Source: a virus
DNA length: 22,909 bases
Strand: one strand, 5' to 3'
IMG/VR virus record: IMGVR_UViG_3300034521_000399
Span: 1-22,909 of that record
The translations under genes were made by a program, and so were the position numbers. The notes under the pieces were generated by a model, which was not told where the DNA came from, made no database searches, and worked only from the letters and a program-made list of their open reading frames with translations. This document shows, piece by piece, positions 3,708-22,909 of this stretch (the stretch's first letter is position 1; the number at the start of each line of letters is the position of its first letter).

Positions 3708-3746
3708 ACAAAATCCCTCCTTGATTTTTTTGTTTGTCAAGAAGGG

Positions 3747-4784: not shown

Positions 4785-4811
4785 AATACTTTCTCTCCTT
4801 TTTTAAAAAAT

Positions 4812-4911: not shown

Positions 4912-4924
4912 AGTCAATGACTTA

Positions 4925-5089: not shown

Positions 5090-5103
5090 AACATTCGACT
5101 CCT

Positions 5104-5141: not shown

Positions 5142-5774
5142 TTTTACGTGGTTGGGATATCCAAGCGCAATCTGTTTAAGGCCAATTAATATGGTTTCAA
5201 AAACGATATTTACGGCATGTTTTTTGCCTTCATCACGGACCGGGACAATTCTGACCTCTAAAGAACCCGTGGTAATCTCATTTTTGATGTACTCAAGGCC
5301 ATGGATATTTGCCAAAGTACCCATGAGAGCATAACCCAGCGCGGACACACCGGCGCAAACAGGGTCATTGCCTGGATTGTACCCGGCATGGCCAGTAATT
5401 TTTAAACCAGTGAATCCTTTCTTTTCGTTGTACCTATAGGTAATGTATATCCCATTACCTTCCTCTATGTCGCAAGGAATATAAGTTTTGGCGAAAATAT
5501 CAGGCTTGCAGGGATAAAACTCACCATTTACACCCTTGATAATAAAGTCACCCTCTCGCGCTATGTGTATTCCTTCCAAGGTTTTGATCCTTAGTCCCAT
5601 GGTGTTAGATGTTTGCCCATCCGGTAACTCCTCGAAAGTCTCATCATTTAACCATACGCCTTTATCAAAATATTTTGGGCTGATAAAGTCACATACCTCA
5701 TTCCAGTTTTGCCAATTAAGCTGTATCGCTTCAATTACAACCGGGGCTTTACGATACCTTTTGATATTACTCAT
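5124..5774 (-). CDS. Fusion protein: phage N-terminal domain plus Prp-type cysteine protease domain (candidate prohead protease)
   Basis: Two domains in one 216-residue frame. Residues 1-100 (KAPVVIEAIQ to KGVNGEFYPCKPDIFAKTY) match a small phage protein usually seen alone and of unknown function. Residues 108-216 match the ribosomal-processing cysteine protease Prp: KITGHAGY with His129, DPVCAGVSAL with Cys140 as the presumed catalytic pair, then a C-terminal ILIGLKQIA helix. The His-Cys spacing is 11, against 12 as I recall for S. aureus Prp. Prp in Firmicutes removes the N-terminal extension of ribosomal protein L27 and in some staphylococcal phages trims capsid proteins. Here the gene lies between portal and scaffold, the usual prohead-protease slot, so a role in capsid maturation is likely. 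ATG start with GGGAGG. Confidence 0.8.
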   Translation of the reverse strand: MSNIKRYRKAPVVIEAIQLNWQNWNEVCDFISPKYFDKGVWLNDETFEELPDGQTSNTMGLRIKTLEGIHIAREGDFIIKGVNGEFYPCKPDIFAKTYIPCDIEEGNGIYITYRYNEKKGFTGLKITGHAGYNPGNDPVCAGVSALGYALMGTLANIHGLEYIKNEITTGSLEVRIVPVRDEGKKHAVNIVFETILIGLKQIALGYPNHVKVENVV

Positions 5775-5796
5775 TACATTCTACCTCCCAGATTAG

Positions 5797-7638
5797 TTAT
5801 ACTGCAGGTCCTCCCTGTTGTTTTAGCAATTCCTCGCCGCCCAAAAGTCGGATAATCTCCCACATCTTGGCCATTTCTTGTTGCATGGCCGTCGTTTGTT
5901 GCTGGAATTGCTGCAGCAGGTCGCCATTCTCGGCTATTTTCTGCAATATAGTTTCTTTGCCCTCGAAGTTCATCATTTCCAAGGCAATTTTAGCTTCAGG
6001 CGCGCGTTGCGGAGCGAACATGCCTATCTGGAACATCTCTTTAGCCATTTCGTTGTACAAAACGGTTGAAAACGGGGATTTCTTCTCTGGTACAATCGTC
6101 ACATCAAAAACCGGTTTCCTGTATTTCGGCCGGTAGTTTTTGTCCTGGATGAATGTCTGGGTATCAAGATCAAATATCATGCCTTCATTCGGGTATGCTG
6201 GAGGTAGTGGCTGAGGAACAATACCGGCATTAGTATACGTCACATATTGATATTGACCATTCTGTCCGGTGATACGGAAATCCCTTTCCTTATCATAGAA
6301 CTGCCTAACCAGCTCGATGGTTTTATAAACCATGCTGGTCAGGTTTTCATACGTCATGCCTATCATATCCCTCGACAATTTATTCCCGGCCTCTTGCAGG
6401 GCATATATCGCCCTGGCCGCCGTCACGCCTTTCCCGCCTTCGCCACTTGCAAACACGTCATTGGCAGTGATCTCTTTCATCTCTTGGATTTTGTTTTGCC
6501 TATGCTGCGCGATGAAAGGATCAAGCGGCTTGGCTTGGAACATACGGATATATTCTTCATTTAACGGGCCATCAACTTCAATGATGTCTTTCGAAAAATC
6601 AACAATATCATCCTTCGATACCGAACCGCCGCGCTTAATAAACCAGCGCATCTTCCCAGCAATCAAGGCGTTTTTGGATATAATCTGATCAAGTTTGTCA
6701 ATATACATCTGCGGATTCTTGGCCAGGTCTACCAGCCCAAAACCGGTCGGATAGCCTTCCTCAGGGAACAGAACATCGAAATCCACAGGATATTCGCCGT
6801 GGTCATATATGCCACGGTCTTTGTATTGTTCGTCCTCCATGCTGTTGTAAAGGACCGTGCTGCCCACAAACTTGACCAGGTGCAGTTGTATCCGCCCGTC
6901 ATTCCCGCGCCGGCGCATATACCAGTCCACAACTACACTTTTTTTGGTGATGTCTATATGGTCGTCATATGCGTACTGCTTGGGGTCTATAATCCGTTTG
7001 CCCTTGATGATAGTAGTATCATCAAGTATGTTGGCATAAGTGTCGGCCAGGACTTCATCATCTTCCAGTCCTATGATAAAGAAATTGCTCCCGTCCTGGA
7101 TATCCTTCACTCCCGGCTGCCAGGCCAGATTAAGAAGATCAAGCCTTGTCACAACTATATCGCCCATCCCCTCCAGCTTCTCCGCATCCCAGAATTGGCC
7201 ATATGGCACGCAGCCATTCAGTAGCTTGTACCACCAACCATTTGCATACGTCCTGCGGAAGCGGTTGGAATCATATATTGCTGGGATGATTTTTGACAGC
7301 ATCTCAGCTTCTTTTTTGTCAGCTTCTTTCCGCGGCAAAACGTTGAACGAAGGATAATTGTCCATCGCGTCTGCGTGTTTATTTGCGATCATGTTGAAAA
7401 GATACATAGTGACAGGCTCCGGGTCGTTTTTTCGAAGCTGGCTTCGGAATAAATCCCAATGCCGCCCCTTCCACCACTTGTGATTCTCGATGATCCGCTG
7501 GTCAAGCTGCTCTTTGCCGGCAAAATACTCCTTCAGTATTTTTGCCCCCTCAATTGCAAGGTCAATGTCCGTAGAAGTGTTCTTTTTGGCCTTCTCGATT
7601 GATACATTATAGCCAAAAACGCTAATCTTTCTTGGCAT
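5797..7638 (-). CDS. Portal protein (P22/N4-like)
   Basis: A 613-residue protein forming the dodecameric DNA entry/exit channel. The call rests on position (directly after TerL, before protease and scaffold), length, and sequence typical of P22-like portals: an N-terminal WWKGRHWD segment, NMIANKHADAMDNYPSFNVLPR, a central FPEEGYPTGFGLVDLAKNPQMYIDKLDQIISKNAL, then GGKGVTAARAIYALQEAGNK. The C-terminus (about 570-605) is a Gln/Glu-rich coiled coil that may form a barrel inside the capsid. ATG start with GGAGAGGAGGGG upstream; the gap to TerL is 16 bases. Confidence 0.88.
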   Translation of the reverse strand: MPRKISVFGYNVSIEKAKKNTSTDIDLAIEGAKILKEYFAGKEQLDQRIIENHKWWKGRHWDLFRSQLRKNDPEPVTMYLFNMIANKHADAMDNYPSFNVLPRKEADKKEAEMLSKIIPAIYDSNRFRRTYANGWWYKLLNGCVPYGQFWDAEKLEGMGDIVVTRLDLLNLAWQPGVKDIQDGSNFFIIGLEDDEVLADTYANILDDTTIIKGKRIIDPKQYAYDDHIDITKKSVVVDWYMRRRGNDGRIQLHLVKFVGSTVLYNSMEDEQYKDRGIYDHGEYPVDFDVLFPEEGYPTGFGLVDLAKNPQMYIDKLDQIISKNALIAGKMRWFIKRGGSVSKDDIVDFSKDIIEVDGPLNEEYIRMFQAKPLDPFIAQHRQNKIQEMKEITANDVFASGEGGKGVTAARAIYALQEAGNKLSRDMIGMTYENLTSMVYKTIELVRQFYDKERDFRITGQNGQYQYVTYTNAGIVPQPLPPAYPNEGMIFDLDTQTFIQDKNYRPKYRKPVFDVTIVPEKKSPFSTVLYNEMAKEMFQIGMFAPQRAPEAKIALEMMNFEGKETILQKIAENGDLLQQFQQQTTAMQQEMAKMWEIIRLLGGEELLKQQGGPAV

Positions 7639-7654
7639 TTTTGCCCCTCCTCTC

Positions 7655-9067
7655 CTATGTTCTCATAAAGCCGTAGTGATCTCTAACTGGCTCAGTATCT
7701 AATGGGTTGTATGGCTGCTCTGTAATACCCACACTTGGCGGTGCTGGTATCGGGTTATCCATAAATAGGTATCTGGCCTCATCGTAGCAGTGGTCCTCTC
7801 CAGATGTATCCACATCCTCTACATCATGATCATCATAAACGAGCGTTGGGATCGTGCGATTGAAGCCCTTGTTCCAGCTAAAGCTATACATCATGGGATA
7901 ACCGTTCTCATCAAAAGTCAAGCGGTAGTGAAACTGCATTTTGCCGGGAATACGTTTATTATCGCCCGGCTCCCAATACACGCCATAATTTTCAAAAGTC
8001 CAAGCTATACTTTCTCCGGTGTCACGCTGGAATATGGCCGGATCTGCAATTCCACGGAAGTGTATGCCCTTGTAATATTTGTCCTCAATCTCCTTTATCT
8101 TTTCCGCAACCTGTCCAGGGGTCCAGCGCAGGCCCCGGTCAGGTTCATTGGTGCAGCCGTAAAGCTCGCGCTCGCGGTATAGCCGCCCGTCATGGTCCAT
8201 AGCCCACCAACCGACGGAAAACGGCCTTGTATAGCCCCAGTCCAGCGTCCGAAACCGTTTCCACTCGCGTGGGACAAGAAACGGGCTGATAACATGCGTC
8301 CATTGGCGGTCCTTGTAATGGGTTGGGTCATCTCTCCACTCAACAAATACCTGGCCCTGGAAAGTGTTCCAATCACCAAACAGCAGGGCCTTTCTTTCTG
8401 CCTCCGGGAGCTGTGCCAGAGCTGCAATATAGTTGGGGTCGTTATTGAGGAGAATCGGGTTATCGAACACTGTGGCCGGGATAAATACCCGGTCTTTAAC
8501 ATACTCCCTACCGGCGACTTTTACCCTGGCTATGTATCTCTTAAAAGGCTGCATTGATAAAATAAACCGTAGTTTTACCCATCCGTGACCAATTCCACCA
8601 GGGTTTCCTGTAGCCGCTATGCTTACGTGAGTCCCTGGGCCCCCTGGCCGGTTACGAGAAAACATATAGGAGTATTCGTCCCATGTAAAATGCGTAAGCT
8701 CGTCAAAGTTTATTTCATCGAATCGCTTCCCCTGATATTTAAACCGGTCCTTCTTGTGCTGCATTGAACCAAAGTAAACCTTGGCACCAGAGGGGAAGGT
8801 CCAGACGTGCTTGTTGTCATTGTATTTGGCCGCAGGAAAAGCCTTCTTATAAAGCTCAAGACTCCTGTCAATGAGCTGTGACGCTTCCGGGAAGGTTTTA
8901 CGGAAAATGATGGCCCGGAAATGCGGGATATGTACCTGTCGTAACGGTCTAACAATGATGGCGTCCGATTTCCCGCCACCGGCAGCCCCACCATAAAACA
9001 CCTCTGATTCAGGACGGGAAAGGAAAATGCGCTGCTTTGGCTGTGGGGTCCATATTACTTTAGCCAC
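7655..9067 (-). CDS. terL: Terminase large subunit (packaging ATPase and nuclease)
   Basis: DNA-packaging motor. The N-terminal ATPase has Walker A GGAAGGGKS (26-34), Walker B with the catalytic acid INFDELTHF (119-127) and the coupling motif ATGNPGG (152-158). The C-terminal RNase H-like nuclease supplies acidic residues in TLDWGYTRP (Asp276), GIADPAIF (Asp342) and HCYDEARY (Asp429). Length 470 is normal. The start is GTG at 9065-9067, inside the end of the small-subunit gene (13-base overlap), with GGGAGGAAAGG just upstream, so the two subunits are translationally coupled. Confidence 0.95.
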   Translation of the reverse strand: MAKVIWTPQPKQRIFLSRPESEVFYGGAAGGGKSDAIIVRPLRQVHIPHFRAIIFRKTFPEASQLIDRSLELYKKAFPAAKYNDNKHVWTFPSGAKVYFGSMQHKKDRFKYQGKRFDEINFDELTHFTWDEYSYMFSRNRPGGPGTHVSIAATGNPGGIGHGWVKLRFILSMQPFKRYIARVKVAGREYVKDRVFIPATVFDNPILLNNDPNYIAALAQLPEAERKALLFGDWNTFQGQVFVEWRDDPTHYKDRQWTHVISPFLVPREWKRFRTLDWGYTRPFSVGWWAMDHDGRLYRERELYGCTNEPDRGLRWTPGQVAEKIKEIEDKYYKGIHFRGIADPAIFQRDTGESIAWTFENYGVYWEPGDNKRIPGKMQFHYRLTFDENGYPMMYSFSWNKGFNRTIPTLVYDDHDVEDVDTSGEDHCYDEARYLFMDNPIPAPPSVGITEQPYNPLDTEPVRDHYGFMRT

Positions 9068-9735
9068 TGTCCTTTCCTCCCTGGCCCTCCCTGGGGCACG
9101 TCCATATCTAATATTCCCAGTTCAATTGCGTCCTCATCTGGTTCCGCCATTGCCGGAATTTCAATAATGCCGCTTTCTTCTTCATCTTCATTACCAATAC
9201 CAGCAGACTTTCTGGCAATCTCCAGCTTTTCTCTCTCAATCTGTAGCCGTTGTTTAGCTTCTTCATCCAGGATCCCCTTAATTGTGCGAGAGAGGCGAGT
9301 TGCGGCCTCTAGTCCAGCTGCAAGGTCTTTGAGACGGCGGGTGTCAACGGTATCAAATTCCTCCTCGATTAACCTTTCATCAAAATTCCCTTTGCCGTAG
9401 CCAGTTCTTAATTTGACAATATGCCGGTTGAATTGCTTTGGGTCCTGTAGGATGGAATTAGCCAGGCGGATAATTGCAGCCGCTGCCTGGTCTGCCAGAA
9501 TCATTTCCTCGGCCATTTTTTCAGATTGTTTTTCCTGGGCCTTTTGTATAGCCTTGGTAAATGTTTTGTTGTGATAATCCGCGCGTAGCTCCACCCAGTT
9601 TTCCTTCTTACCACGCTGGCCAATAGAATACAGACTAACACCATATTTTTTTTGTAAATCTCTGTAAGAGAGATTGTTTTTAATAAAGTCCGTTTTTATC
9701 TTGGTCCAAGGGATTTTACGCTTTTCAATTGTCAA
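9055..9735 (-). CDS. terS: Terminase small subunit
   Basis: A 226-residue protein recognising phage DNA for packaging. Residues 20-47 (LSYRDLQKKYGVSLYSIGQRGKKENW) are a helix-turn-helix as in many Firmicute small terminases. The middle is helical (oligomerisation) and the C-terminal 50 residues are acidic, ending in a Gly/Pro-rich tail that may contact TerL. The start is TTG at 9733-9735 with AAAGGGGG seven bases upstream. It is the first gene of the late operon, 56 bases after the early-operon terminator. Confidence 0.87.
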   Translation of the reverse strand: MTIEKRKIPWTKIKTDFIKNNLSYRDLQKKYGVSLYSIGQRGKKENWVELRADYHNKTFTKAIQKAQEKQSEKMAEEMILADQAAAAIIRLANSILQDPKQFNRHIVKLRTGYGKGNFDERLIEEEFDTVDTRRLKDLAAGLEAATRLSRTIKGILDEEAKQRLQIEREKLEIARKSAGIGNEDEEESGIIEIPAMAEPDEDAIELGILDMDVPQGGPGRKGQWLK

Positions 9736-9748
9736 GGTAAAACCCCCT

Positions 9749-9785
9749 TTCTACAAATTTCGACATTTACAGCTTGAGTATACCA
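9749..9785 (-). promoter_or_regulatory. Candidate late promoter with operator-like motif
   Basis: Between the terminator and terS the minus strand carries TGTGGTATACT (extended -10, 9777-9787) without a good -35. Thirteen bases past TGGTATA is TGTCGAAATTTGTAGAA (9749-9765), matching 15 of 17 bases in the upstream region of the RepO-like gene (12786-12802). This fits a regulated late promoter. Confidence 0.42.
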
Positions 9786-9791
9786 CATCAC

Positions 9792-9817
9792 AAAAAAAAT
9801 GGGGGTTGTCAGCCCCC
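9792..9817 (-). terminator. Rho-independent terminator ending the early operon
   Basis: On the minus strand GGGGG-CTGACAA-CCCCC is followed by ATTTTTTTT (T-run at 9792-9799). It begins three bases after the stop codon of the gene at 9820 and separates early from late genes. Confidence 0.85.
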
Positions 9818-9819
9818 TA

Positions 9820-10107
9820 TTAAATTTGATTATCCTTCTTTCTTCGATATTCCGCAGCTGCAGGACAGGTTGCAAAATGACTTTCATAGCCATAATCGGT
9901 ATAAAAGCCGTTTTCTACCTGTTTGCCGGTAACAACTTCTCCTTTATCAGTAACAATAGTAGTATCACTATCCTTGGCATCAGCTAATATTAACTTTCTA
10001 GTGGTATTTACCGGCATTAGTCGGCCTGCATGTGTTCTTATCCAATAGATATCTGCACCACAACCCTTGCATTTTCCTTTAGGTAGTTGTTTTGTCAGTT
10101 CTTTCAC
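9820..10107 (-). CDS. Small Cys/His-rich phage protein
   Basis: About 95 residues. CKGCGADIYWIRTHAGRLMPVN near the N-terminus and GYESHFATCP near the C-terminus give two Cys pairs and His residues that could bind one zinc. This arrangement recurs in small Firmicute phage proteins of unknown role, often near resolvase genes. Two GTG starts are possible. The one at 10113 overlaps the RusA stop by four bases but sits only two bases from AAGGAGG. The one at 10105-10107 is eight bases from it and is preferred. Last gene of the early operon. Confidence 0.68.
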   Translation of the reverse strand: MKELTKQLPKGKCKGCGADIYWIRTHAGRLMPVNTTRKLILADAKDSDTTIVTDKGEVVTGKQVENGFYTDYGYESHFATCPAAAEYRRKKDNQI

Positions 10108-10109
10108 GG

Positions 10110-10466
10110 TCACAACCTCCTTATCTTCACTTCTACCCTGGGATTCTTCGGGTCCACATCGAACGTATCGTTAAAGCCGGCGATTTGCTTCCATCCGTCA
10201 TTCTTTATAAGCCCGGCTCTCTGAAAACCATCTAAAATAAACTTTTTCCCTGCCGAGATATTGTCTAAGTCTCGCTTTTTATTTGGTTCAAACCATGTTA
10301 TATCCAATTCAGCTCTTTCAAAAGGTTTTAACATTTTTGCTGGCCATGCTACTGCATTTGTATATGTTTCCTTTAAGTCTCTGTAATTAGACCAATGACC
10401 TTTTGCAGCATCTATAATCTCATTTAGCCCTGGGAGCTGCATAGGTATTACTAATTTATCGTTCAT
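10110..10466 (-). CDS. rusA: RusA-family Holliday junction resolvase
   Basis: Endonuclease that cuts four-way DNA junctions, used by phages to resolve recombination or replication intermediates before packaging. The RusA signature is clear: RDLDN (65-69) and LIKNDG (86-91) carry the metal-binding aspartates, with K74/K75 between. Length 118 is normal. I chose the ATG at 10464-10466 because AAGGTG lies nine bases upstream; a GTG four codons earlier lacks a site. It follows the zinc-ribbon ORF by eight bases. Confidence 0.88.
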   Translation of the reverse strand: MNDKLVIPMQLPGLNEIIDAAKGHWSNYRDLKETYTNAVAWPAKMLKPFERAELDITWFEPNKKRDLDNISAGKKFILDGFQRAGLIKNDGWKQIAGFNDTFDVDPKNPRVEVKIRRL

Positions 10467-10474
10467 GGTAGACT

Positions 10475-10630
10475 TCACCTTGCAGATACAGGTTTTAACC
10501 TATGCTGGTTAAATTTATGACCGCACCTCTTACAAATATAACTTTTACCATCTATCCAGGCTTCGGTATTTACTTTATATTTATCCCAAGAACAGTGAGG
10601 GCAAACTTTAAGCATTGGTTGTTTCCTCAT
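10475..10630 (-). CDS. 51-residue zinc-ribbon protein
   Basis: Short ORF starting at the ATG 10628-10630 with AAGGAGG 11 bases upstream and ending eight bases before rusA. The sequence has CPHC (10-13) and CKRCG (33-37) around a short aromatic strand, a standard two-knuckle zinc ribbon, followed by a basic tail (HKFNQHRLK). The fold suggests DNA or RNA binding; no partner can be named. Confidence 0.72.
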   Translation of the reverse strand: MRKQPMLKVCPHCSWDKYKVNTEAWIDGKSYICKRCGHKFNQHRLKPVSAR

Positions 10631-10810
10631 TGTCCCTAATACCTCCTTAATTTTTTTTAAAAAAAAGAAAGAGAAAAATGACCCCTGTCTTTATACAATA
10701 GACACAACTTCCTTTACCACGCTCTTTTATATATTTCTTTATATATTTATTTAATATTTTCTTTCGGCAGCCTCTCAGCCATACTGCCGCAATTGGTACA
10801 AGGAACCTAG

Positions 10811-10900
10811 AGTACACCATTTGGTGTAGGGAGAGTACACCATTTGGTGTACCCAGAGTACACCATTTGGTATACCCTAAGAGTACACCATTTGGTGTAC
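10811..10900. repeat. Four palindromic iterons
   Basis: AGTACACCATTTGGTGTA starts at 10811, 10834, 10857 and 10882 (23, 23 and 25-base steps). Copies 2 and 4 are perfect 8+2+8 inverted repeats; copies 1 and 3 have one change each. The spacing of about two helical turns suits a dimeric binding protein loading side by side. Confidence 0.85.
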
Positions 10901-10921
10901 CCCGAATTGGAATAATATGGT

Positions 10922-10965
10922 TTATCCACAGGGTTATCCACAACATATCCACAGAATTATCCACA
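10922..10965 (+). repeat. Cluster of four DnaA boxes
   Basis: TTATCCACA at 10922-10930, 10934-10942 and 10957-10965, and ATATCCACA at 10945-10953. All fit or nearly fit the bacterial consensus TTATNCACA, have the same orientation and repeat every 11-12 bases. Confidence 0.75.
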
Positions 10966-11000
10966 GAATCCTTTTGACTATTATTGATGTTCATGGACAA

Positions 11001-11198
11001 TCAAAAGGGAATATCTTCATCGTATTTTAAATTGTCCGATAGAACTTTAAGACATAAAACCTGTTGATGAATTAGGTGACACATATCCACCTTTTCCCTG
11101 TGAGTCCGGGAGAAAACCACTTGTAAGAGGTTATCATTTAAATTACTGATGATATTGTCCAGCCGTTCTTTTACGGCCTTTCTTCTTTCATCATCCAT
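11001..11198 (-). CDS. Small hypothetical phage protein
   Basis: A 65-residue, helix-rich, charged protein (two predicted helices, 1-30 and 35-58) without recognisable motif apart from one Cys-rich stretch (MCHLIHQQVLC). ATG start with AAGGAGG 11 bases upstream. It lies directly before the origin-like region in the early operon. No function can be given. Confidence 0.6.
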   Translation of the reverse strand: MDDERRKAVKERLDNIISNLNDNLLQVVFSRTHREKVDMCHLIHQQVLCLKVLSDNLKYDEDIPF

Positions 11199-11204
11199 AG
11201 AGTT

Positions 11205-11339
11205 TTACGCCTCCTTGCTAATCTTCATCTCAGGATACATTTTGCTGACCATGTCAGCCAACGAAGTACCGGGATATCGCTTGATACAGTCAGCGGCAAA
11301 ACAATGATCATTGCAAAAACGGAGTTCCGGCCCTACTTT
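11205..11339 (-). pseudogene. Start-less ORF with Cys/His motif (frameshifted or frame-linked to the upstream gene)
   Basis: Protein-like open frame of 44 codons: the segment RFCNDHCFAADCIKRYPGTS followed by LADMVSKMYPEMKI looks like a real small zinc-binding protein, but the frame has no ATG, GTG or TTG before its middle, and TAA closes it upstream at 11340-11342. It lies in the -1 frame relative to the end of the gene at 11333, and the two frames meet at a TTTTTAAAAAG run. Either the gene lost its start, the sequence has an indel in the run, or the ribosome slips there. Confidence 0.4.
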
Positions 11340-11827
11340 TTAAAAATTCCTTTTATCCATTTTTCTCTTTTTCCTTTAGTCATCAATCCAATTTCCCGGC
11401 TTGTCAAAGGTGGAAGTGTCGCAGCCTTTTCAATGTCCCAGCCACTTTTTACTCTACGCCGAAACGTATCGTATGGAATACCATTGTTCTTTGCCATTTC
11501 CACGTATTCACGAGGATATACACGGCTTTTTTCATAAGCTTTTATGGCCTGTGCTTTCCGATCCTGGAGTTGCTGCGTTGCTGCTCTTTCCGGGTCCCAG
11601 CCGAGCGTATTGACTCGCCATAAAAAAGTCCTGTAACAAATACCGTTCTGCTCTGCAAGCTTTACCAGATGACTCGGAAGTCTCTTTTTCTTTTGTGGTG
11701 GCTCGCTTATGGCCCTATCTTTCGCCCAGGCCAGAGACCTAACACGAACCTCTAAAACTGCTGGACTAATTCCGTTTTGAGCAGCTCGTTCGTATTCTTG
11801 TGGAGTGATATAGAAATCGTAGTTCAC
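11333..11827 (-). CDS. Three-repeat putative DNA-binding protein
   Basis: A 164-residue basic protein built from three related 34-residue units (11-44, 53-86, 107-140). Each follows the pattern Y/L-x-x-A-x-x-N-G-I-x-x-x-x-[FL]-x-x-R-V-x-x-x-x-W-x-x-[ED]-x-A. Each unit looks like a helix-turn-helix (AAQNGISPAVLEVRV and so on). Similar repeat proteins occur in Firmicute prophages without known function. Three HTH-like units and the nearby iterons make binding to repeated DNA a possibility. GTG start at 11825-11827 with GGGGGT upstream. The frame ends at a slippery-looking T5A5G run. Confidence 0.6.
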   Translation of the reverse strand: MNYDFYITPQEYERAAQNGISPAVLEVRVRSLAWAKDRAISEPPQKKKRLPSHLVKLAEQNGICYRTFLWRVNTLGWDPERAATQQLQDRKAQAIKAYEKSRVYPREYVEMAKNNGIPYDTFRRRVKSGWDIEKAATLPPLTSREIGLMTKGKREKWIKGIFKK

Positions 11828-11870
11828 CAGTCATTACCCCCGATATTGCACTTAATCTTTGGAATGTGCA

Positions 11871-12323
11871 TTATTTTATAAAAACTAACCAATGTGTCTT
11901 ATTTCTTCGGTTTCCGAATAGCGGCTTTTGGCCAATGGCTTTTAAAACTTCACTCAATTTAACTTGTTCTTCATTCCATTTAAAAATTAATGTTCCATTG
12001 GGCCTTAGTACTCTCATACACTCCTGAAAACCCTGTGAAATATCCTGTTTCCAGTTGTCGGAGAGTATGCCGTATTTTTTGGCTAACCATGAATTTTGCC
12101 CGGCCTGTTTCAAGTGAGGAGGATCAAAAATAATCAAGTAAAAAGAATTGTCAGGAAAAGGCATGTTTCTAAAATCTGCAATTATATCCGGTTTAATGTT
12201 AAGCACCCGCCCATCACACAGGACTTCTGTCAAACACCGGTTGTCCATATATAAGACGTCGGGATGCTGCTTTTCAAACCAAATCATTCGGCTGCCACAA
12301 GTTGCATCTAAAATACGTTGCAT
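11871..12323 (-). CDS. Class I SAM-dependent methyltransferase (DPPH type)
   Basis: A 150-residue enzyme. LDATCGSRMIWF (5-16) is the SAM-binding motif I of a known phage group, and FDPPHL (66-71) is the catalytic motif IV expected for an amino-group (N6-adenine or N4-cytosine) methyltransferase. No separate target-recognition domain is present, so the substrate is not clear. It may methylate phage DNA to escape restriction. ATG start with AGGTGA upstream. Confidence 0.82.
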   Translation of the reverse strand: MQRILDATCGSRMIWFEKQHPDVLYMDNRCLTEVLCDGRVLNIKPDIIADFRNMPFPDNSFYLIIFDPPHLKQAGQNSWLAKKYGILSDNWKQDISQGFQECMRVLRPNGTLIFKWNEEQVKLSEVLKAIGQKPLFGNRRNKTHWLVFIK

Positions 12324-12369
12324 CTAATCACCTGCCCTGTTTCGCAATTTTTACAGACTACGCACTAAA

Positions 12370-12708
12370 CTAAAACTTCCATAAGTCATAGTTTTTATTA
12401 AACTTAACCTTGCGGGAAATAGTACCTTTTGGCGGCTGTGTTTCTTTGAAAATGAAATGCTTATTTAATAGCTCGTCACAAGCTATTTTTACCTGCTTTT
12501 CGCTTACTCCAAGGGCCTCGGCAGCTTCTCTTAATGATAAGTGACACTCCTTGCGCTGATAGCCATATGTTAGTCTAATTACCAATAAGCAAAGAGCATA
12601 TTTCGTCCCTGAAAGCTTACCTGCGCGCCGATAAAGAGCTTCAAGTATCTCATTGGCTATTTTTGTAAATCCATTTTCTGTTTGTGGATTTGCCAATCGC
12701 ATCACCAC
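12370..12708 (-). CDS. RepO-like replication initiator, N-terminal DNA-binding domain only
   Basis: A 112-residue winged-helix protein matching the phage replication protein O N-terminal domain: ENGFTKIANEILEAL, LSGTKYALCLLVIRLTYGYQRKECHLSL, then the HTH REAAEALGVSEKQVKIACDELLNKHFI. In lambda, this domain binds iterons in the origin. The C-terminal helicase-loader contact region of lambda O is absent; the protein stops right after the wing. Start is uncertain: two GTGs (12708, 12705) and an ATG (12702) lie in a row with only a weak ribosome site. Confidence 0.75.
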   Translation of the reverse strand: MVMRLANPQTENGFTKIANEILEALYRRAGKLSGTKYALCLLVIRLTYGYQRKECHLSLREAAEALGVSEKQVKIACDELLNKHFIFKETQPPKGTISRKVKFNKNYDLWKF

Positions 12709-12727
12709 TCATATTTCAGACTAGTTA

Positions 12728-12755
12728 AAGGGGTGCAGGAGTTACCTACACCCTT
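12728..12755 (-). other. Leader hairpin upstream of the RepO-like gene
   Basis: AAGGGTGTAGG pairs with CCTGCACCCCTT around a TAACT loop (11 pairs, one bulge). It lies 20 bases before the start codons. No T-run follows, so it is more likely a translation or mRNA-stability element than a terminator. Confidence 0.4.
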
Positions 12756-12785
12756 ACTTAATCATAGGTCCACCTGCGCCCACGA

Positions 12786-12874
12786 TTCGACACATTTCGA
12801 CAAAACTGCCCTCAAAAGGTAAATATACCAGCAAGGGGGTCAAAACGAATATAGTCCATTCTGACGCGTCTGAA
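12786..12874 (-). promoter_or_regulatory. Candidate promoter and operators upstream of the RepO-like gene
   Basis: The 268-base gap between the 3D-domain gene and the RepO-like gene holds TGGTATATT (extended -10, 12822-12830, minus), then TGTCGAAATGTGTCGAA (12786-12802), which matches 15 of 17 bases near the terS promoter. Upstream of the -10 is a near-palindrome TTCtGACGCGTCtGAA (12859-12874). The early operon may thus have an internal promoter here. Confidence 0.4.
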
Positions 12875-12976
12875 TACTATTTATCTCTTCTCAGCTAAAT
12901 TTAAGGGGAATTGAGAGAAACAAGTCTTTCTTGGTGGGTTAAGGTTTTTTGGGGGTTGGGCGTACCTCCGCAGCAA

Positions 12977-13540
12977 TCATTTACTGGTCGTGCTATATTC
13001 ATAATCTTTTCCTCCTTTATCTCTCAGTACAATAGTGGGCAGGACCTTCCTACCGTGTTTGATGGCCTCTTGGTTGGTTTTAACGGCCAGATCGACCAAA
13101 TAATATTGGTTTGTCCCCCTCGATACTTCCAGGGTCCTTTTGCGCATGGCTGCGCCGGTGTCCTGGGCTATTTTAAGCCCGTGGCCGGGGATTAGAAACC
13201 TCGTCCCGTATGGAAAGATTTTCGGATCCACGGCCACGGTATAGGAGGAGGGATATACACCGGTAGAAGTTTTTACATCCCCGTCATTACAAAGTCCTCT
13301 GGAATCGTAGGGAGCATAGGCTGTGGTTTCGACAAAAAGGACATCAAACTTAGTCATAAATTCATTGATGGTATTTTCGAGTTTTTCTAACCGATTGCCG
13401 GTTTCTTCTAAAAACCTGTCAGACATTTTTACTAAAGTTACGGTTTGGAAAATGTTTAAGGTAATCGAAAAAATAAGGAGAATTGAAAGAAAAAGTGATA
13501 AGCGCACCAACTGTTTGCATGTTCTGTAAATATCACCCAT
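12977..13540 (-). CDS. Membrane-anchored 3D-domain protein (predicted cell-wall-active)
   Basis: A 187-residue protein. Residues 11-36 form one membrane helix, 40-65 a coiled coil, and 70-170 a 3D domain with its three aspartates in VAVDP (105), AQDTG (127) and LVDLAV (150). 3D domains are found in lytic transglycosylase-like enzymes (MltA, resuscitation-promoting-factor-related). It would sit in the membrane facing the wall. Its place between RecT and the replication initiator, far from the late lysis genes, is unusual. ATG start with AGAGG seven bases upstream. Confidence 0.78.
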   Translation of the reverse strand: MGDIYRTCKQLVRLSLFLSILLIFSITLNIFQTVTLVKMSDRFLEETGNRLEKLENTINEFMTKFDVLFVETTAYAPYDSRGLCNDGDVKTSTGVYPSSYTVAVDPKIFPYGTRFLIPGHGLKIAQDTGAAMRKRTLEVSRGTNQYYLVDLAVKTNQEAIKHGRKVLPTIVLRDKGGKDYEYSTTSK

Positions 13541-13552
13541 AAGGAACCTCTC

Positions 13553-13577
13553 AAGGGGTGGGGGCTTTGCACCCCCG
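13553..13577 (-). other. G/C-rich hairpin after recT
   Basis: On the minus strand GGGGG-TGCAAAG-CCCCC (or GGGGTG/CACCCC) begins two bases after the RecT stop and runs up to the ribosome site of the 3D-domain gene. No T-run follows, so read-through is expected. It may tune expression of the 3D-domain gene. Confidence 0.4.
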
Positions 13578-13578
13578 T

Positions 13579-14493
13579 TTATTTCTCTTTCTCCCTGTCA
13601 AACTCAAACAGACCGCCGGCCTCCTGTTCGGCAAGCTCTTGATCAAATTTCCGGCTTTCTTCCTCGGAAAAACTGTATTCGGCCTGAATATCGCCGTCTG
13701 CCCCGTCAACATATTCGATGGCACCTGTTTCATCCAGGCTTTCGTTGTATATGACGGCCTGGTCTGCCTTCATGGCGCGCTGGATGTCGATAGACATAAT
13801 CCCCCAAGTCTTGAGCAAGAGCTTGATAACAGTTTTACGATACATAAAATGCGGGTCTTTCTTCCACATCCCCTTGGGATTGTTGTATGACTTGCTGTAC
13901 CGCTTCCCATGCGCCTCCAGTTCAGCGATAGTCATGTATAGCCCTTTAGAAAAGCCATTTGCAAGGCGGAAAAAGGCATAGTATCCTATGATTTTATCCG
14001 TTTTACCTGCTGCCCTATGTTTCCAAGTGGATGGATCTGTGAAAGTCACGTCGCCTGTCAAAGGATTGTAGCTGGCCAGCTCGTCCTCATACACTTCCGA
14101 AACGTGCATGGTGGAATATAGCCCGGTCCGGATGGACAATTGAGCGAAGCCTTTCCATTGCACCTGAAACTGGGCCTTCTTCCCCTCCTTGCCGTCATAA
14201 GGTATTATTGCGGCGAATCCCAGGTTCGGGTCAATCGGCAGGTCCAACGTCGCTGCCGTGGCCGCCGCCGCCACAACGGAATGAGGGTCACAAGCGGCCA
14301 GTTCCCTATTCGTGTTGGTGACATTGATAACTGAAGCTATAAACCCGGCAGCCTTAGCCCCTAGAATTTCCTCAAACCGTTTCTTGACGGCTTCGTTCGA
14401 TAGGAGTGATTTCACCGTCACGGCCGGAAGATTTTTCTTTTCGGCCTGATTATTTAGTCTGTCTTTCAGCTTGTCTTTATCTTTAAGGTCCAT
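13579..14493 (-). CDS. recT: RecT-family single-strand annealing protein
   Basis: A 304-residue recombinase that anneals complementary single strands. Family signatures: AACDPHSVVAAAATAATLDLPI, NLGFAAIIPY, AQFQVQWKGFAQLSIRTGLY, and the C-terminal KRYSKSYNNPKGMWKKDPHFMYRKTVIK. The last 50 residues are very acidic, as usual in RecT. Its exonuclease partner (YqaJ type) is encoded 1.7 kb upstream in the same operon. ATG start with AAGGAGG eight bases upstream. Confidence 0.93.
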   Translation of the reverse strand: MDLKDKDKLKDRLNNQAEKKNLPAVTVKSLLSNEAVKKRFEEILGAKAAGFIASVINVTNTNRELAACDPHSVVAAAATAATLDLPIDPNLGFAAIIPYDGKEGKKAQFQVQWKGFAQLSIRTGLYSTMHVSEVYEDELASYNPLTGDVTFTDPSTWKHRAAGKTDKIIGYYAFFRLANGFSKGLYMTIAELEAHGKRYSKSYNNPKGMWKKDPHFMYRKTVIKLLLKTWGIMSIDIQRAMKADQAVIYNESLDETGAIEYVDGADGDIQAEYSFSEEESRKFDQELAEQEAGGLFEFDREKEK

Positions 14494-14519
14494 GATTTAA
14501 ACCTCCTTGACATTAAAGT

Positions 14520-14688
14520 TTAACGCCAAAATTTTGCATGCCATGGACATAAGTCCATATATTCAGTTACCTTGGTTGTGCATTTATCGCACATAGGCAA
14601 GTCATATGCGTCTTTCTCCCTCCCCGAAGGGAATGGGCGGGTCCAGGCTTCATCCTTATCCTGGTTATCACCGTCAGGTGTTTTTCAC
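14520..14688 (-). pseudogene. Cys/His-motif ORF with a one-base frame break near its GTG start; same segment can fold as an RNA
   Basis: A frame ending at 14520 encodes PDGDNQDKDEAWTRPFPSG, then CDKC...LCPWHAKFWR, a plausible zinc knuckle. It has no start of its own: TGA closes it in the A5 run next to GTG 14686-14688. Removing one A from that run would give GTG-AAA-ACA-CCT and a 55-residue protein. The same DNA can form a three-way junction on the minus strand: TGGGCGGGT (14692-14700) with ACCCGCCCA (14634-14642), enclosing CACC/GGTG and CCAGG/CCTGG hairpins, then CCC-TTCG-GGG. I cannot decide between pseudogene, sequence indel and RNA element. Confidence 0.4.
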
Positions 14689-14708
14689 GCCACCCGCCCA
14701 AAAGTTAT

Positions 14709-15470
14709 TTACCTAGGACTACCAGTAACCACTAAATACCCCGGCAGCTCTTTTCTGATAGTTTCGATTTCTGCTCGAACAGCTTCACGCCAGTACAAAG
14801 GAAGTTTAGGACATTCCAGAGAGAAGGAAAGCTTTTCTCCCTCTGAACGGGGTTTGTTTACTGTTAGTTCTATTTCTAATTCATCCAGCTTCCCACTTTC
14901 GTTAATAATAGGGATATAGATTTCAAAGGAAGAAGGGAAAGTTGTAGCAGATTCAGCGTCCTTAATCTTGAAAGCTACAGTCACATTATTGTTGTCCTGG
15001 TATATGAAGTCACCTGATATTTCTGTTGCCATTCTGATCGTCTGAACTGCAGCCATAAGCTGATCCAGATCAGGAACTTCCTCCGGGTTGCGCCGTTTCA
15101 AGAAATCAATAAAGGCTTTTTGCGTGATTGGCTTATTGAAGGCACTCTTCCACTCTTGCAATTCTAAAGATTCCTGAAAGCGGTAAACAATGGTGTCCTG
15201 GGGCCTGTCCTGCACCGATTCATCAACAATCACCTGGACCTGCTTTTCATCATAGAAAATAATTGTGTTCCTGGGATTGGGTTTGCCGCTGCTATCAACT
15301 GTTAAATGCTTAAGTAGATCAATTACGGCTTGAGCAGAACCAGCAACATAGTTAAAACCTGTGTAATGGAAGCTGTACTCATCTTTTACCTTCTGTTGGC
15401 TTTCAATGATATGAATTGTTGCCTTTTCCTGACCAGGAGCCATATTAACAATTAATTTTTCATTATCCAT
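14709..15470 (-). CDS. DUF2303 (YfdQ-like) phage protein
   Basis: A 253-residue cytoplasmic protein resembling the DUF2303 family of phage and prophage genes: QEWKSAFNKPITQKAFIDFL followed by a PDLDQLMAAVQTI helix, then a beta-rich half ending SFSLECPKLPLYWREAVRAEIE. Members sit in early recombination operons beside RecT-like genes; their function is unknown. ATG start with AAGGTGAG upstream. Confidence 0.72.
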   Translation of the reverse strand: MDNEKLIVNMAPGQEKATIHIIESQQKVKDEYSFHYTGFNYVAGSAQAVIDLLKHLTVDSSGKPNPRNTIIFYDEKQVQVIVDESVQDRPQDTIVYRFQESLELQEWKSAFNKPITQKAFIDFLKRRNPEEVPDLDQLMAAVQTIRMATEISGDFIYQDNNNVTVAFKIKDAESATTFPSSFEIYIPIINESGKLDELEIELTVNKPRSEGEKLSFSLECPKLPLYWREAVRAEIETIRKELPGYLVVTGSPR

Positions 15471-19090: not shown

Positions 19091-19315
19091 TTACATTCCG
19101 TGATTAAGGTCAGCAAAAAAAAGCTCATCAACGGTTTTTCCAAAAAAATCAGCAATCTTTTTTTGCACTTCACGGCGAGGGTGTGGTCGATGACCAGACT
19201 CAATCATAGCGTAAGAACTTTGAGGCATTCCGAGTTTTTCTGCGATTTCAGCCTGTGTCAATCCCATTTCTTCACGCAATTTCTGCATAACCTCATTAGG
19301 CTTAATTAGCTTCAT
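19091..19315 (-). CDS. Cro-like XRE-family regulator
   Basis: A 74-residue protein with one XRE helix-turn-helix (LREEMGLTQAEIAEKLGMPQ, then SSYAMIESGHRPHP) and a short C-terminal FFGKTVDELFF segment. It is the first gene of the leftward early operon and is divergent from the repressor, the place of Cro. I chose the ATG at 19313-19315 because GGAGGTG lies seven bases upstream; the upstream ATG overlaps that site. An operator-like sequence (19090-19104) overlaps its stop codon. Confidence 0.85.
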   Translation of the reverse strand: MKLIKPNEVMQKLREEMGLTQAEIAEKLGMPQSSYAMIESGHRPHPRREVQKKIADFFGKTVDELFFADLNHGM

Positions 19316-19359
19316 ATACACCACCTCCATAATTACGTATTGTGATTGTCCTAATTACT

Positions 19360-19416: not shown

Positions 19417-19464
19417 TTAAAATAATCACGTTTTGTGTTAATTTATTGATAGGTGGTGTTGAAA

Positions 19465-19860
19465 ATGTCAAGTTTAGGAAAAAGAATAGCTACTCTTAGG
19501 GAAGAAAAAGGATACTCTCAAGCAGAATTGGCTAAGTTTTTGTCATTAAGTCAAAGTGCAATAGCTATGTATGAAAAGGATAATCGTAATCCAGATCCTG
19601 AAATAATTAACAGGATTGCCTCTTTTTTTGATGTTTCTACTGATTATTTGCTAGGACGCACAGATGAACGCCGTCCAGCAGAAAAAGTCATCGAGGAAGC
19701 CATATCCGATGACGCGGAATTGCTTGAATTTTTCCAAGACCTCAAGCAGAGAGATGACCTTCAATTACTTTTTAAACAAGTTAAACCTCTTTCGCAGAAC
19801 ACAATTAAAAGAATAATTAAATACATAAAAATGGTTGAAGATGAAGAGTCGCAGGAATAA
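19465..19860 (+). CDS. XRE-family phage repressor (ImmR type)
   Basis: A 131-residue repressor. Residues 3-60 are an XRE HTH (LREEKGYSQAELAKFLSLSQ, SAIAMYEKDNRNP, SFFDVSTDYLLGRTD). The C-terminal half is helical and acidic and has no LexA-type Ser/Lys protease motif, so it should not self-cleave. Together with the following ImmA-like gene it matches the ImmR/ImmA pair of ICEBs1 and related phages, in which the protease cleaves the repressor on induction. ATG at 19465 with AGGTGG eight bases upstream; upstream GTG codons overlap the site. Confidence 0.88.
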   Translation: MSSLGKRIATLREEKGYSQAELAKFLSLSQSAIAMYEKDNRNPDPEIINRIASFFDVSTDYLLGRTDERRPAEKVIEEAISDDAELLEFFQDLKQRDDLQLLFKQVKPLSQNTIKRIIKYIKMVEDEESQE

Positions 19861-19863: not shown

Positions 19864-19900
19864 AACCCGCCATCCAGCAGAAGGATAGCGGGTTATTTAT
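19864..19900 (+). terminator. Terminator-like hairpin between repressor and ImmA genes
   Basis: AACCCGC (19864-19870) pairs with GCGGGTT (19888-19894), with inner ATCC/GGAT, followed by ATTTAT. The T-tract is weak, so partial termination that lowers ImmA relative to repressor is likely. Confidence 0.55.
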
Positions 19901-19914: not shown

Positions 19915-20235
19915 ATGACTTTTGACGAGCTTTGTGGCATAGTTCGCGAGAGGATTGAGTACGATTCCTATTCAGCTTTGAATATTTATTCTCATGTTGT
20001 GCCTTTGGGTGGTGAGGCCCTGGCCTTTGTTTATCGCTCCAAAGGAAACAATTTTCATATATTCATAAACGAGTCCATTTCTACAGAGGCCCAAAGAGAA
20101 GTATTTGTTCACGAACTTTATCATATTGCCTTTAATATGCCTTATTCTGGCTATATTCTTGGTGTGGACAAACATAGAAGTCCAATTGAAGAAGCAGCTG
20201 ATGTATTTGCACATAAATTAACTAAGGCTATTTAG
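19915..20235 (+). CDS. immA: ImmA/IrrE-family metallopeptidase
   Basis: A 106-residue zinc protease with HELYH (66-70) as the HExxH motif and a downstream EEAADVFA (92-99) supplying the third ligand, as in ImmA. The predicted role is cleavage of the neighbouring repressor after DNA damage or another host signal. Compact compared with many family members. ATG start with GGGAGGAG six bases upstream. Confidence 0.88.
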   Translation: MTFDELCGIVRERIEYDSYSALNIYSHVVPLGGEALAFVYRSKGNNFHIFINESISTEAQREVFVHELYHIAFNMPYSGYILGVDKHRSPIEEAADVFAHKLTKAI

Positions 20236-20245
20236 GAGGGCTAAA

Positions 20246-21079
20246 ATGAAGAGAAGAATATTGGCTATCTTAATTCTCATTTTTATATTTAATTCTTTAA
20301 TGAACATTACTGTGAAAGCTGCCGAAACCAAGCCAATTATGATCATTGTCGATAATGAAGAAATAGAAACAGATACCCCGCCAGTAATTATAAACGGAAG
20401 GCTTTTAGTTCCTGTAAGAACTATATTTAACGCCCTTGGTGCTGAAATAAAATGGGATGATTATTCTAGGACTATAACAGCAACAAAAGGAAGTTTAAAT
20501 ATTTACCTAAAAATTGATGATAAAAATTGCTTATTGAATGGCGAAAAAATCGTATTAGATGTCGAACCTCAAATAATCAACAACCATACAATGATTCCAT
20601 TACGTTTTATAGCTCAAAGTTTTGGAGCAGAAGTTTTTTGGGTTCCAGAATGGAACAGAGTTGCAATAGTAACCAGTTCATTTAAAAATCCATTATCAGA
20701 AGAAGAAAAAAAGGAAGAAGAACCTAAAGCAGTAGTAGAAAATCAATATGGTTTTTCTCCCCCTCTAATCTTAATTGCCGATAACAAAGAAAAGGTTTTC
20801 TTAGGAAAATTGACCACAAATGAGTTTGAAAAAGATAGCATTTTTAATCAATTTGGAGAGTTTGGCAGTAAATATTCTCAAAAAAGTATATGGAACGAGT
20901 TTGGGCCATATGGAAGCAAATTTTCTTCGTACAGTCCTTGGAACAAATTTACCAGTACCCCTCCATTAATTGTAGATAAATCAGGAACTGTAGTTGGTCG
21001 ATTATCATTAAATAACTTTATTAAAGGTGCTATCAACCCATACGAATTATATAAGATACTTAAAAGACTTGGTCTGTAA
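20246..21079 (+). CDS. Secreted stalk-domain (copper amine oxidase N-like) cargo protein
   Basis: A 277-residue secreted protein carried between the immunity genes and the integrase. Residues 1-26 are a signal peptide (KRR then a long hydrophobic stretch, cut near VKA-AE). Residues 30-145 form a pair of CuAO_N1-type units (VIINGRLLVPVRTIFNALGAEIKWD and QIINNHTMIPLRFIAQSFGAEVFW), a wall- or surface-associated fold common in Clostridia. The C-terminal half holds repeats of S-I-[FW]-N-x-F-G-x-[FY]-G-S-K-[FY]-S followed by PWN and TPPLIVD. It has no known phage function and is probably a lysogenic-conversion gene. It follows immA by ten bases with an AGGAGGG site. Confidence 0.82.
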   Translation: MKRRILAILILIFIFNSLMNITVKAAETKPIMIIVDNEEIETDTPPVIINGRLLVPVRTIFNALGAEIKWDDYSRTITATKGSLNIYLKIDDKNCLLNGEKIVLDVEPQIINNHTMIPLRFIAQSFGAEVFWVPEWNRVAIVTSSFKNPLSEEEKKEEEPKAVVENQYGFSPPLILIADNKEKVFLGKLTTNEFEKDSIFNQFGEFGSKYSQKSIWNEFGPYGSKFSSYSPWNKFTSTPPLIVDKSGTVVGRLSLNNFIKGAINPYELYKILKRLGL

Positions 21080-21105: not shown

Positions 21106-21240
21106 ATGAAAGCTAGGATAACAGTAATAAGAATCCCTCACCCTAATCCCCAAAGGGCAATTAATTTGATAGCAGAGATAGCCCTTAAACAAATAATTCA
21201 AGAAGAAACCCTAAACAAGGTGGACAATCATGGAACATAA
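21106..21240 (+). CDS. 44-residue ORF overlapping the integrase start
   Basis: Small protein, MKARITVIRIPHPNPQRAIN then a helix (LIAEIALKQIIQEETLNKV). ATG at 21106 with GGGAGAG eight bases upstream; its stop overlaps the integrase start by 11 bases, so the two are coupled. I recall similar short ORFs directly before serine recombinase genes in Firmicutes, but know no function. Confidence 0.6.
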   Translation: MKARITVIRIPHPNPQRAINLIAEIALKQIIQEETLNKVDNHGT

Positions 21241-22909
21241 TTCAAAAGTTAAACCTGAAACAGGCATAATTGCAGATATTTACATCCGCAGCAGTAAAAC
21301 GCGGATTAATGATGAAAAGATCTCTCCTGAAACCCAAGAACAAGAATGTCGGAAGTACATAGCCGCTATGGGCTGGAAAGTAGGAGAAGTAAGGAAAGAT
21401 CCTAATAAGTCCGGGTTTACTATTCACTATACGAAACGGCCCGGGCTTATGGACCTATTAAGACGCGCTGAAGAGGGCAAAAGTCATAAGGTAGTAGTAT
21501 ATAAATTCTCTCGCCTTGGAAGAAAATACTTTGATGAAATCTGCGACAAATTTGAAGATTTGGGAGTTGCAATAGTAAGCGCAACTGAACAGATCGATGT
21601 AACCACTGCTGCTGGACGCGCCTTCCGGAGCAACCTTGGATCATGGAATCGTTTCTTCGCTGAAGATACAAGCGAGTGGCAGCAGGACACCAAGCAAACA
21701 AGTGCTGAAGAAGGAAAATACAACGGCGGCCATTCATTTTATGGCGCCACATGGAGTAAAGACAGCCGTCGATTTATTAACGATCCTTTCAAGTCCAATA
21801 TAGTTCTAAAGTTATTTGAGAAAAAAGCAGCTGGTTATGGCCGAAATCAATGCATGAAGCTATTGCACGATAATTTTCAGGAATTTGGCGCAGATTCCAT
21901 TATTCTAAGTCCAACGGGTAAAGAATGGTGGCAGGAGACAACCCTGCAATATCTATGGCAAAATGGCCGTTATATTGGCCTAATCCCGCATAACGGTCTT
22001 TTTTACGGTGGAGAGCATATTAATGAGCCAATAATTCTTAATGGCAAGAAATATAACAACTGGCATGATTATCTGGTGCGTGGACATGGGTTGTCGCCAG
22101 AAGAAGCACAAAAGCGGATTATTGAAGGGTCAAAGCGTCCTCGAATAATTCCAGAGCCAATCATTCCTATTTCACTTTGGAATGCGGTGCAGGAAGAATT
22201 AATACGGAATAGCGCTCAAAGCAGTTCCCAAAAAGCAAGCAGCCATGAATTTACGGGACTGATGTTTGACTCTAGGGACCTGCAAGCTTATCAATATAAA
22301 AAACAAGATGATGGCCACCCGGCGCGTTGGTTGTGTGCCATCAGAAAACGCCGCGGTGTAAGTGTTTGCAATTCCAAAATTATAGATCATGAAACTTTCC
22401 TTAATAGCCTCTTAGAACACATTTTCCAAGTCGCAATAAATATGGAGTTTTGGGCAAAGATTAAATCCGACCTTGCCGAACAGATACGGCAAAAAAATAA
22501 ACCTGCGTCCCTTGAAAGACGTAGGCTAGAGAAAAGAATAATCAAGCTGCAAGAAACCATTAAAGAAATTGAAATCGATCGTTATGAGAGACGTTCTATT
22601 TCAGCAGAACAATTTGCAAGATTAAACTTAAAATACCAAAAAGAATTAGACCAATTAAATGAGCAATATAGGCAATTAGATGCAGAAATTTCAATCAAGC
22701 ATTCCTATAAGGACATTGATAAGCTACAATTTAACATGATGTACCTAAGAGAAGCGTGGGACACTCTTGAACAAAAGGAAAGACGACAGGCAATTAAAAG
22801 CATCGTCAAGAGTATTATGGTTACCGATACCCATGTCACGATTGATTTCACTTTCTATAAACTAGATATTTATCCACAAATTATTAAGCGAGATATCATG
22901 TTTTTTTAA
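21230..22909 (+). CDS. int: Large serine recombinase (phage integrase)
   Basis: A 559-residue site-specific recombinase that integrates the phage. The N-terminal resolvase domain has IYIRSSKT (17-24, nucleophile probably Ser22), YKFSRLGR (91-98) and ATEQIDVTTAAGRAF (118-132). A recombinase domain follows (160-320). The zinc-ribbon region is odd: FTGLMFDSRDL lacks the first CxxC, though C369 and C380 of the second pair remain. A coiled coil spans about 425-490. The stop codon is the last base of the window. In phages with serine integrases the attachment site usually lies next to this gene. Confidence 0.93.
   Translation: MEHNSKVKPETGIIADIYIRSSKTRINDEKISPETQEQECRKYIAAMGWKVGEVRKDPNKSGFTIHYTKRPGLMDLLRRAEEGKSHKVVVYKFSRLGRKYFDEICDKFEDLGVAIVSATEQIDVTTAAGRAFRSNLGSWNRFFAEDTSEWQQDTKQTSAEEGKYNGGHSFYGATWSKDSRRFINDPFKSNIVLKLFEKKAAGYGRNQCMKLLHDNFQEFGADSIILSPTGKEWWQETTLQYLWQNGRYIGLIPHNGLFYGGEHINEPIILNGKKYNNWHDYLVRGHGLSPEEAQKRIIEGSKRPRIIPEPIIPISLWNAVQEELIRNSAQSSSQKASSHEFTGLMFDSRDLQAYQYKKQDDGHPARWLCAIRKRRGVSVCNSKIIDHETFLNSLLEHIFQVAINMEFWAKIKSDLAEQIRQKNKPASLERRRLEKRIIKLQETIKEIEIDRYERRSISAEQFARLNLKYQKELDQLNEQYRQLDAEISIKHSYKDIDKLQFNMMYLREAWDTLEQKERRQAIKSIVKSIMVTDTHVTIDFTFYKLDIYPQIIKRDIMFF

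Follow-up and report, generated by a model that had tools for sequence, protein, structure and literature searches.

What does a gene for an exported protein do between immA and the integrase gene of a phage? This question is raised by a locus in a virus contig of 22.9 kb (IMG/VR record IMGVR_UViG_3300034521_000399), the whole 22,909 nucleotides of which were analysed and are called the window in the following; the gene itself is referred to as the cargo gene. The overlapping contig L083 is identical to positions 1-14787 of the window; it stops short of the cargo gene and continues the phage sequence in the other direction. An array of 30-bp repeats (CATGAATGCGG...; window about 63-162) is found close to the left end and continues in L083 at 14631-15083. 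With the portal protein as query nine phage records were found at 36-42% identity; the integrase and RecE queries gave no relative in the viral contig set, and the DNA of the lysogeny region had no match in phage records.

The lysogeny region and the exported product

The lysogeny region begins with a gene for a Cro-like HTH regulator on the minus strand (19091-19330; HTH_3, E 3e-15), which is divergent from that of the prophage repressor of the XRE/HTH_3 type (19453-19860, plus strand; HTH_3, E 1e-16; phrog_8 transcriptional regulator, E 2e-28). The latter is followed on the plus strand by the genes for an ImmA-like metalloprotease (19915-20235; PF06114, E 4e-4; phrog_87 metallo-protease, E 2e-6), the cargo protein (20246-21079; an exact open reading frame of 277 aa with an ATG start) and a large serine integrase (21230-22909; Resolvase, E 2e-23; phrog_95 integrase, E 3e-70). 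Between cargo gene and integrase a small ORF of 44 aa on the same strand, read by eye, overlaps the integrase start (21106-21240). The ImmA-like protein is short, comprising 106 aa, and its PF06114 score of 20.5 bits is just below the cut-off of 22; it also matches the PADLOC model PDC-M69B (E 4e-7). The cargo gene starts 10 bp behind the end of immA on the same strand, and its ribosome binding site AGGAGGG (20234-20240, plus strand), read directly from the sequence, overlaps the immA stop codon (20233-20235). The place in the lysogeny region between immA and the integrase, which a preliminary description had named, is therefore as described. Judging from this gene arrangement, co-expression of the cargo gene with the repressor is likely, and it is rated no higher since a stable hairpin lies between the repressor gene and immA (19864-19894; -17.1 kcal/mol, z -4.5). 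This hairpin is located directly 3' of the repressor stop codon and is terminator-like on the minus strand only; it is possibly a (partial) terminator or an attenuator and may separate the expression of the repressor from that of immA and the cargo gene. Promoter-like sites did not occur above chance (11 versus 8.7 expected, sd 3.1).

The N terminus of the cargo protein is of the Sec type, with KRR, a hydrophobic stretch and VKA-A-E as read from the sequence, and the highest Kyte-Doolittle value of a 17-mer is 2.57 at residue 5. Together with an AlphaFold2 (AF2) helix at residues 2-18 this gives a predicted signal peptide of residues 1-26 (20246-20323, plus strand), the cleavage site being approximate, so that the product would be exported by Sec. 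There is no Cys within residues 1-30 and hence no lipobox, and no membrane or cell-wall anchor was seen in the protein, which may therefore be released. The signal peptide is followed by a PF07833 stalk domain (Cu_amine_oxidN1; residues 35-140, 20348-20665, plus strand; E 5e-36), which with 123.3 bits against a gathering cut-off of 24.2 is a genuine member of this family; up to E 0.1, PF07833 was the sole Pfam match of the full-length protein. Thus, signal peptide and surface-type domain were correctly recognised beforehand. In the full-length AF2 model the stalk domain matched the E. coli amine oxidase in Foldseek (E 2e-4), which served as control for the fold search, the stalk being modelled less confidently than the C-terminal module. 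An acidic, E/K-rich and probably disordered linker (residues 145-169, 20678-20752, plus strand; pLDDT < 50) leads to this module (residues 168-277, 20747-21076, plus strand), which carries 16-aa repeats of the form SI[FW]NxFGxxGSx[YF] and is delimited by a 64-row alignment and by AF2. A known defence gene was ruled out, as neither the cargo protein nor four of its relatives had a match in PADLOC-DB up to E 0.1.

The C-terminal module

The repeat units are SIFNQFGEFGS (198-208), SIWNEFGPYGS (214-224) and a degenerate SPWNKFTSTPP (230-240), with a period of 16. Adjacent units share 7/16 and 6/16 identities, and in 2,000 shuffles the best adjacent pair averaged 3.5 identities with a maximum of 7; taken alone, the identity counts within the window protein are weak evidence for repeats. 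The repeats are nevertheless real, because the pattern is conserved in the 64 aligned relatives, where six positions never vary; these include N34, N50 and N66 in module numbering, each 16 apart. This alignment, A3, has 64 rows after removal of the copies L051 and L067, the degenerate L072 and L004, a near copy of L030, and the smaller alignment A2 holds 40 of 44 rows, the partial or masked sequences L034, L037, L039 and L047 having been dropped. The S-I-[FW]-N-x-F-G-x-x-G-S repeats of the preliminary description are thus confirmed as such, but they do not form a free tail: according to the model the module folds into a single compact domain, with LGKLTTN and VGRLSLN on its two sides. The AF2 model built from 40 sequences has a pLDDT of 94.8 and a pTM of 0.85 and shows few regular elements, namely four short strands and one C-terminal helix. 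Disordered repeats like those of FG nucleoporins were ruled out by this single ordered domain with its high pLDDT.

The module, a basic domain (pI 9.5) with many aromatic residues, could not be named from any of the family libraries searched, as had been stated before from the sequence. Alone it matches nothing in Pfam up to E 1; 40 relatives gave nothing better than E 0.024 against Pfam, 64 module sequences nothing at E 0.01 against NCBIfam, and 40 module sequences nothing better than E 0.014 against PHROGs, while the module profile found nothing better than E 0.12 among PDB sequences. Neither did the module model have a match in Foldseek (best E 1.6 in the PDB and 1.4 in BFVD), nor did any of 258 chains reach Z >= 2 in VIA-align. 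A missing fold match is no proof of a new fold. Bflower was tried as a name since the plasmid-borne L003 is annotated as "4-fold beta flower protein", and it was rejected: in L003 both occur in the same polypeptide as separate domains, with PF21784 confined to the N-terminal part (residues 5-95) and the module at about residues 130-224, and neither the window protein nor any of 40 module sequences matched PF21784 at E <= 1. The module strings are absent from the searched literature (5.39 million papers), no literature linking PF07833 with a prophage was found there, the "beta flower" literature looked into held nothing on the module, and a further search turned up unrelated stalk domains. The module is an undescribed domain in a known kind of genomic place.

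Besides the repeats, the module shows a second, unexpected regularity, which extends across phyla. In A2, positions 27, 36, 43, 52, 59 and 68, spaced by 9, 7, 9, 7 and 9 residues, switch between Phe and Tyr together (pairwise phi 0.83-0.94), whereas the nearby Phe/Tyr columns 18, 39 and 55 take no part in the switch (phi about 0 to 0.1). Of 50 rows of A3, 43 are uniform, with Tyr throughout in 30 and Phe throughout in 13, and 7 are mixed, the other 14 of the 64 rows being set aside because some position is neither Phe nor Tyr; the count of uniform rows compares with a mean of 4.8 and a maximum of 12 in 10,000 shuffles. The window protein belongs to the mixed rows (FFYFFF). When the switching columns were left out of the tree, the block state changed on it at least 15 times versus 16.4 for shuffled labels, with at least four changes on well supported branches, this tree being poorly resolved (104 columns, 6/61 branches starred); an independent-pairs test had too few pairs for significance. 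The proteins of L025 and L032 are 80% identical elsewhere and differ at all six positions (TTC to TAC or TAT). Gene conversion across the repeats was rejected as explanation, as positions 39 and 55 stay out of the block although each is just three residues away from a member of it (36 and 52, respectively), and it is also disfavoured by the codons of L025 and L032, which differ at 32 of 76 identical residues. It is likely that the blocks arise because the six residues share an aromatic core and are strongly coupled there. A narrow literature search, which says little, found no report of such Phe/Tyr covariation.

Distribution and genomic place of the module

Searches by tblastn found the module in 17 of 72,556 plasmid records, and two module queries found it in none of 50,697 phage records, where the full-length cargo protein had one match, via the stalk part only. 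Pattern scans gave 34 loci in species genomes and 33 viral records in all, and one further viral record, L086, came from scans with A5 and A6. The organisms belong to Bacillota, Pseudomonadota, Bacteroidota, Spirochaetota, Planctomycetota and Peregrinibacteriota, and the closest module found, at 60% identity, is that of a Peptococcaceae MAG. Most members comprise 110-150 aa, and most relatives have a signal peptide or a lipobox, as judged by eye; no signal peptide is visible in L003, L021, L028 and L068. The Bacillota-like loci are usually fused to PF07833 (L006, L007, L041, L042, L045, L049, L052, L053, L057), and other fusions are with SLH (L036), PKD (L046), DUF3298 (L002) and Bflower (L003) domains. 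In the Bacteroidota-type L015, L016, L020, L022, L023, L038 and L056 a C-terminal extension (KYYDLIRDDV-WY-KIF and variants) is conserved after the module, and the Chitinophagales protein encoded at L021 2100-2870 carries the module twice in tandem, again without a signal peptide being visible.

The preliminary description had set the phage-borne gene against a core chromosomal gene at the same site of phage-free relatives. In four taxon samples module carriers numbered 1/398 (phylum sample), 2/113, 2/8 and 6/247 genomes, where the genome on which a sample is centred is counted too and L073-L082 entered these counts only. This sparse distribution marks the module as accessory and rules out a core host gene; the samples are centred on the genomes of relatives and thus speak for the relatives rather than for the exact site.

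Is the place behind a repressor peculiar to this phage? In 11 of 33 viral records, versus 1.86 expected (P 3e-7), the module gene has an HTH_3 regulator upstream on its own strand, at most 2.5 kb away; after removal of four near-copies the count is 10 of 29 versus 1.36 expected (P 2e-7). The null is a random position and strand in the same records, many of which are fragments, and HTH_3 misses some repressors; in the remaining 22 of the 33 no such regulator is found. An integrase (PF00239, PF00589) within 2.5 kb was tried as a signature of the family and rejected: it is not enriched (6/33 versus 3.9 expected), and proximity to an integrase is therefore no general feature. The single layouts are clear and the genes closely packed. 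In L043/L044 a Peptidase_S24 repressor is followed by the module 5 bp on, and in L056, whose nearest relatives are Bacteroidota, an S24 repressor is followed by a small membrane protein, the module and a tyrosine integrase. L010 has a repressor, a membrane-type protein, the module and a tyrosine integrase. L042 has the order repressor, ImmA, small membrane protein, module and serine integrase, and the layouts of L041, L007 (Paenibacillus alkalitolerans) and L052 are similar. A small membrane-type protein, recognised by eye in all these cases, often adjoins the module gene (L010, L042, L052, L056; downstream in L043/L044), and the small downstream proteins of L042 and L052 are 51% identical. 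The serine integrases of the module-bearing group share only 22-38% identity with each other, and lysogeny placement thus recurs in phages with unrelated integrases and repressors.

This recurrence bears on the reading that the cargo gene is a host gene taken by chance from the prophage flank, by imprecise excision or binning. Its G+C content of 0.32 is the lowest of the genes measured (neighbours 0.36-0.40, nine other phage genes 0.38-0.50) and the module family is mainly cellular, as would be expected for such an origin, but the gene lies inside the phage between immA and the integrase, and a similar place is found again in L041, L042, L052 and L007, so that we hardly credit this explanation. 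Likewise, the cargo protein might be a virion or lysis-related protein, i.e., act late by decorating the virion, by taking part in receptor binding or by aiding lysis. The module gene indeed lies in late or other regions in L040, L049 and L050/L051, judged by eye between a 1,398-aa ORF and holin- and amidase-like genes in L050/L051 and near an amidase-like gene in L040. The cargo gene, however, is placed behind repressor and immA, and the structural genes run on the other strand, as the PHROG matches to portal and major head genes show, and a signal peptide together with PF07833 is unusual in virion proteins; this second reading is very unlikely as well.

The lysogeny layout was found in only two (L007, L010) of 33 genome loci, counted from the 34 without L039; these two hits are in part due to construction, since the home-made HTH and recombinase profiles contain their sequences, and Pfam backs the repressor and the integrase of L010 and the integrase of L007. 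A third genome locus, L006, adjoins a tyrosine recombinase. The enrichment in viral records and the small number of such genome loci indicate a mainly cellular module family, which was acquired repeatedly by phages and in these often lies in the lysogeny region. That it is mostly a cellular secreted domain across phyla had not been foreseen in the preliminary description.

Possible roles of the cargo protein

By its position, its recurrence and its sparse distribution the cargo gene is an accessory gene in a prophage lysogeny region, as is characteristic of lysogenic conversion by moron-like cargo. We consider it probable that it encodes an exported lysogenic cargo with a binding module, in which the general fitness function discussed below is included. 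RexAB-like and SieA-type proteins are not known to be related to the cargo protein. Their genes in lambda, P22 and epsilon-34 are prophage-expressed cargo too, and rexAB and the epsilon-34 genes 44/45 belong to the repressor operon, in which they come after the repressor (PMC2629481).

The position of the gene suggests that its product alters the surface of the infected bacterium; the proposal of the preliminary description, a change of host adhesion or a block of superinfecting phages, is thereby supported in part. The cargo would be produced during lysogeny along with the ImmA-like protein, would dimerise via the PF07833 stalk and stay at the surface, where stalk and acidic flexible linker would present the compact binding module to a putative ligand at the cell envelope. 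Dimerisation and presentation at the envelope are proposed because PF07833 made PaSOD of Paenibacillus lautus a homodimer and stabilised it (PMC10432803), and the domain is present in surface proteins of Desulfotomaculum reducens (PMC4137172). These proteins have the same order of signal peptide, PF07833 and C-terminal effector as the cargo protein, but their effector is a Cu/Zn-SOD or a cell-wall hydrolase, whereas that of the cargo protein is the undescribed module.

The closest parallel in gene order is Ltp of the Streptococcus thermophilus phage TP-J34, with the order int - ltp - metalloproteinase - CI - cro (PMC3952083). In TP-J34 and TP-778 ltp, like the cargo gene, is located between the integrase gene and those of the metalloproteinase and CI, and Ltp is transcribed in the prophage and, similar to the proposed cargo product, exported with an anchor or spacer and a C-terminal repeat domain, which is active (PMC3952083). 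However, Ltp is a lipoprotein of 142 aa, whereas the cargo protein of 277 aa has a cleavable signal peptide and PF07833 instead of a lipobox, and the Ltp repeats need negative charge, in contrast to the basic module (PMC3952083). No Ltp was among the PDB sequence and fold matches listed, Pfam gave PF07833 only, and the cargo protein is, as far as these comparisons go, no homologue of Ltp. As leading mechanism it is suggested, by analogy with Ltp and with considerable doubt, that the cargo might exclude superinfecting phages at the envelope; since the charge of the module is unlike that of the Ltp repeats, its target need not be the tape-measure protein.

As main rival, the module would have a general role as a secreted domain for binding or for stress, directed to metal, polysaccharide or the envelope, several ligands being possible, and phages would have taken it up because the lysogen benefits from it. 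This may well be so, although it falls somewhat short of being probable. The lack of the lysogeny layout in 31 of 33 genome loci, the occurrence in many phyla, the fusions to SLH, PKD and DUF3298 domains and the basic, aromatic-rich nature of the module all agree with it; on the other hand, the sole known exported protein that was found for exactly such a gene order is the exclusion protein Ltp. Position cannot separate such a fitness function from phage exclusion, because any lysogenic cargo would sit behind repressors.

As a more far-reaching idea, which we regard as improbable, the module might be an envelope-exclusion domain across phyla that phages of Bacillota, Bacteroidota and Pseudomonadota placed independently behind their repressors to block the entry of competitors. 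All-Phe and all-Tyr would then be the two states that a single aromatic core or ligand surface can take, flipping as a block because mixed cores work poorly, and possibly a specificity switch in an arms race. With its block switching the module offers a clear natural example of residues strongly coupled within one small domain. To our knowledge, few families are known of the envelope-altering prophage genes that decide which phages share a host. The locus points to a further family of such genes, by way of a domain unnamed in the searched libraries, and a signal peptide together with SIxNxYGxYGS repeats behind a repressor provides a handle to search for more of its members.
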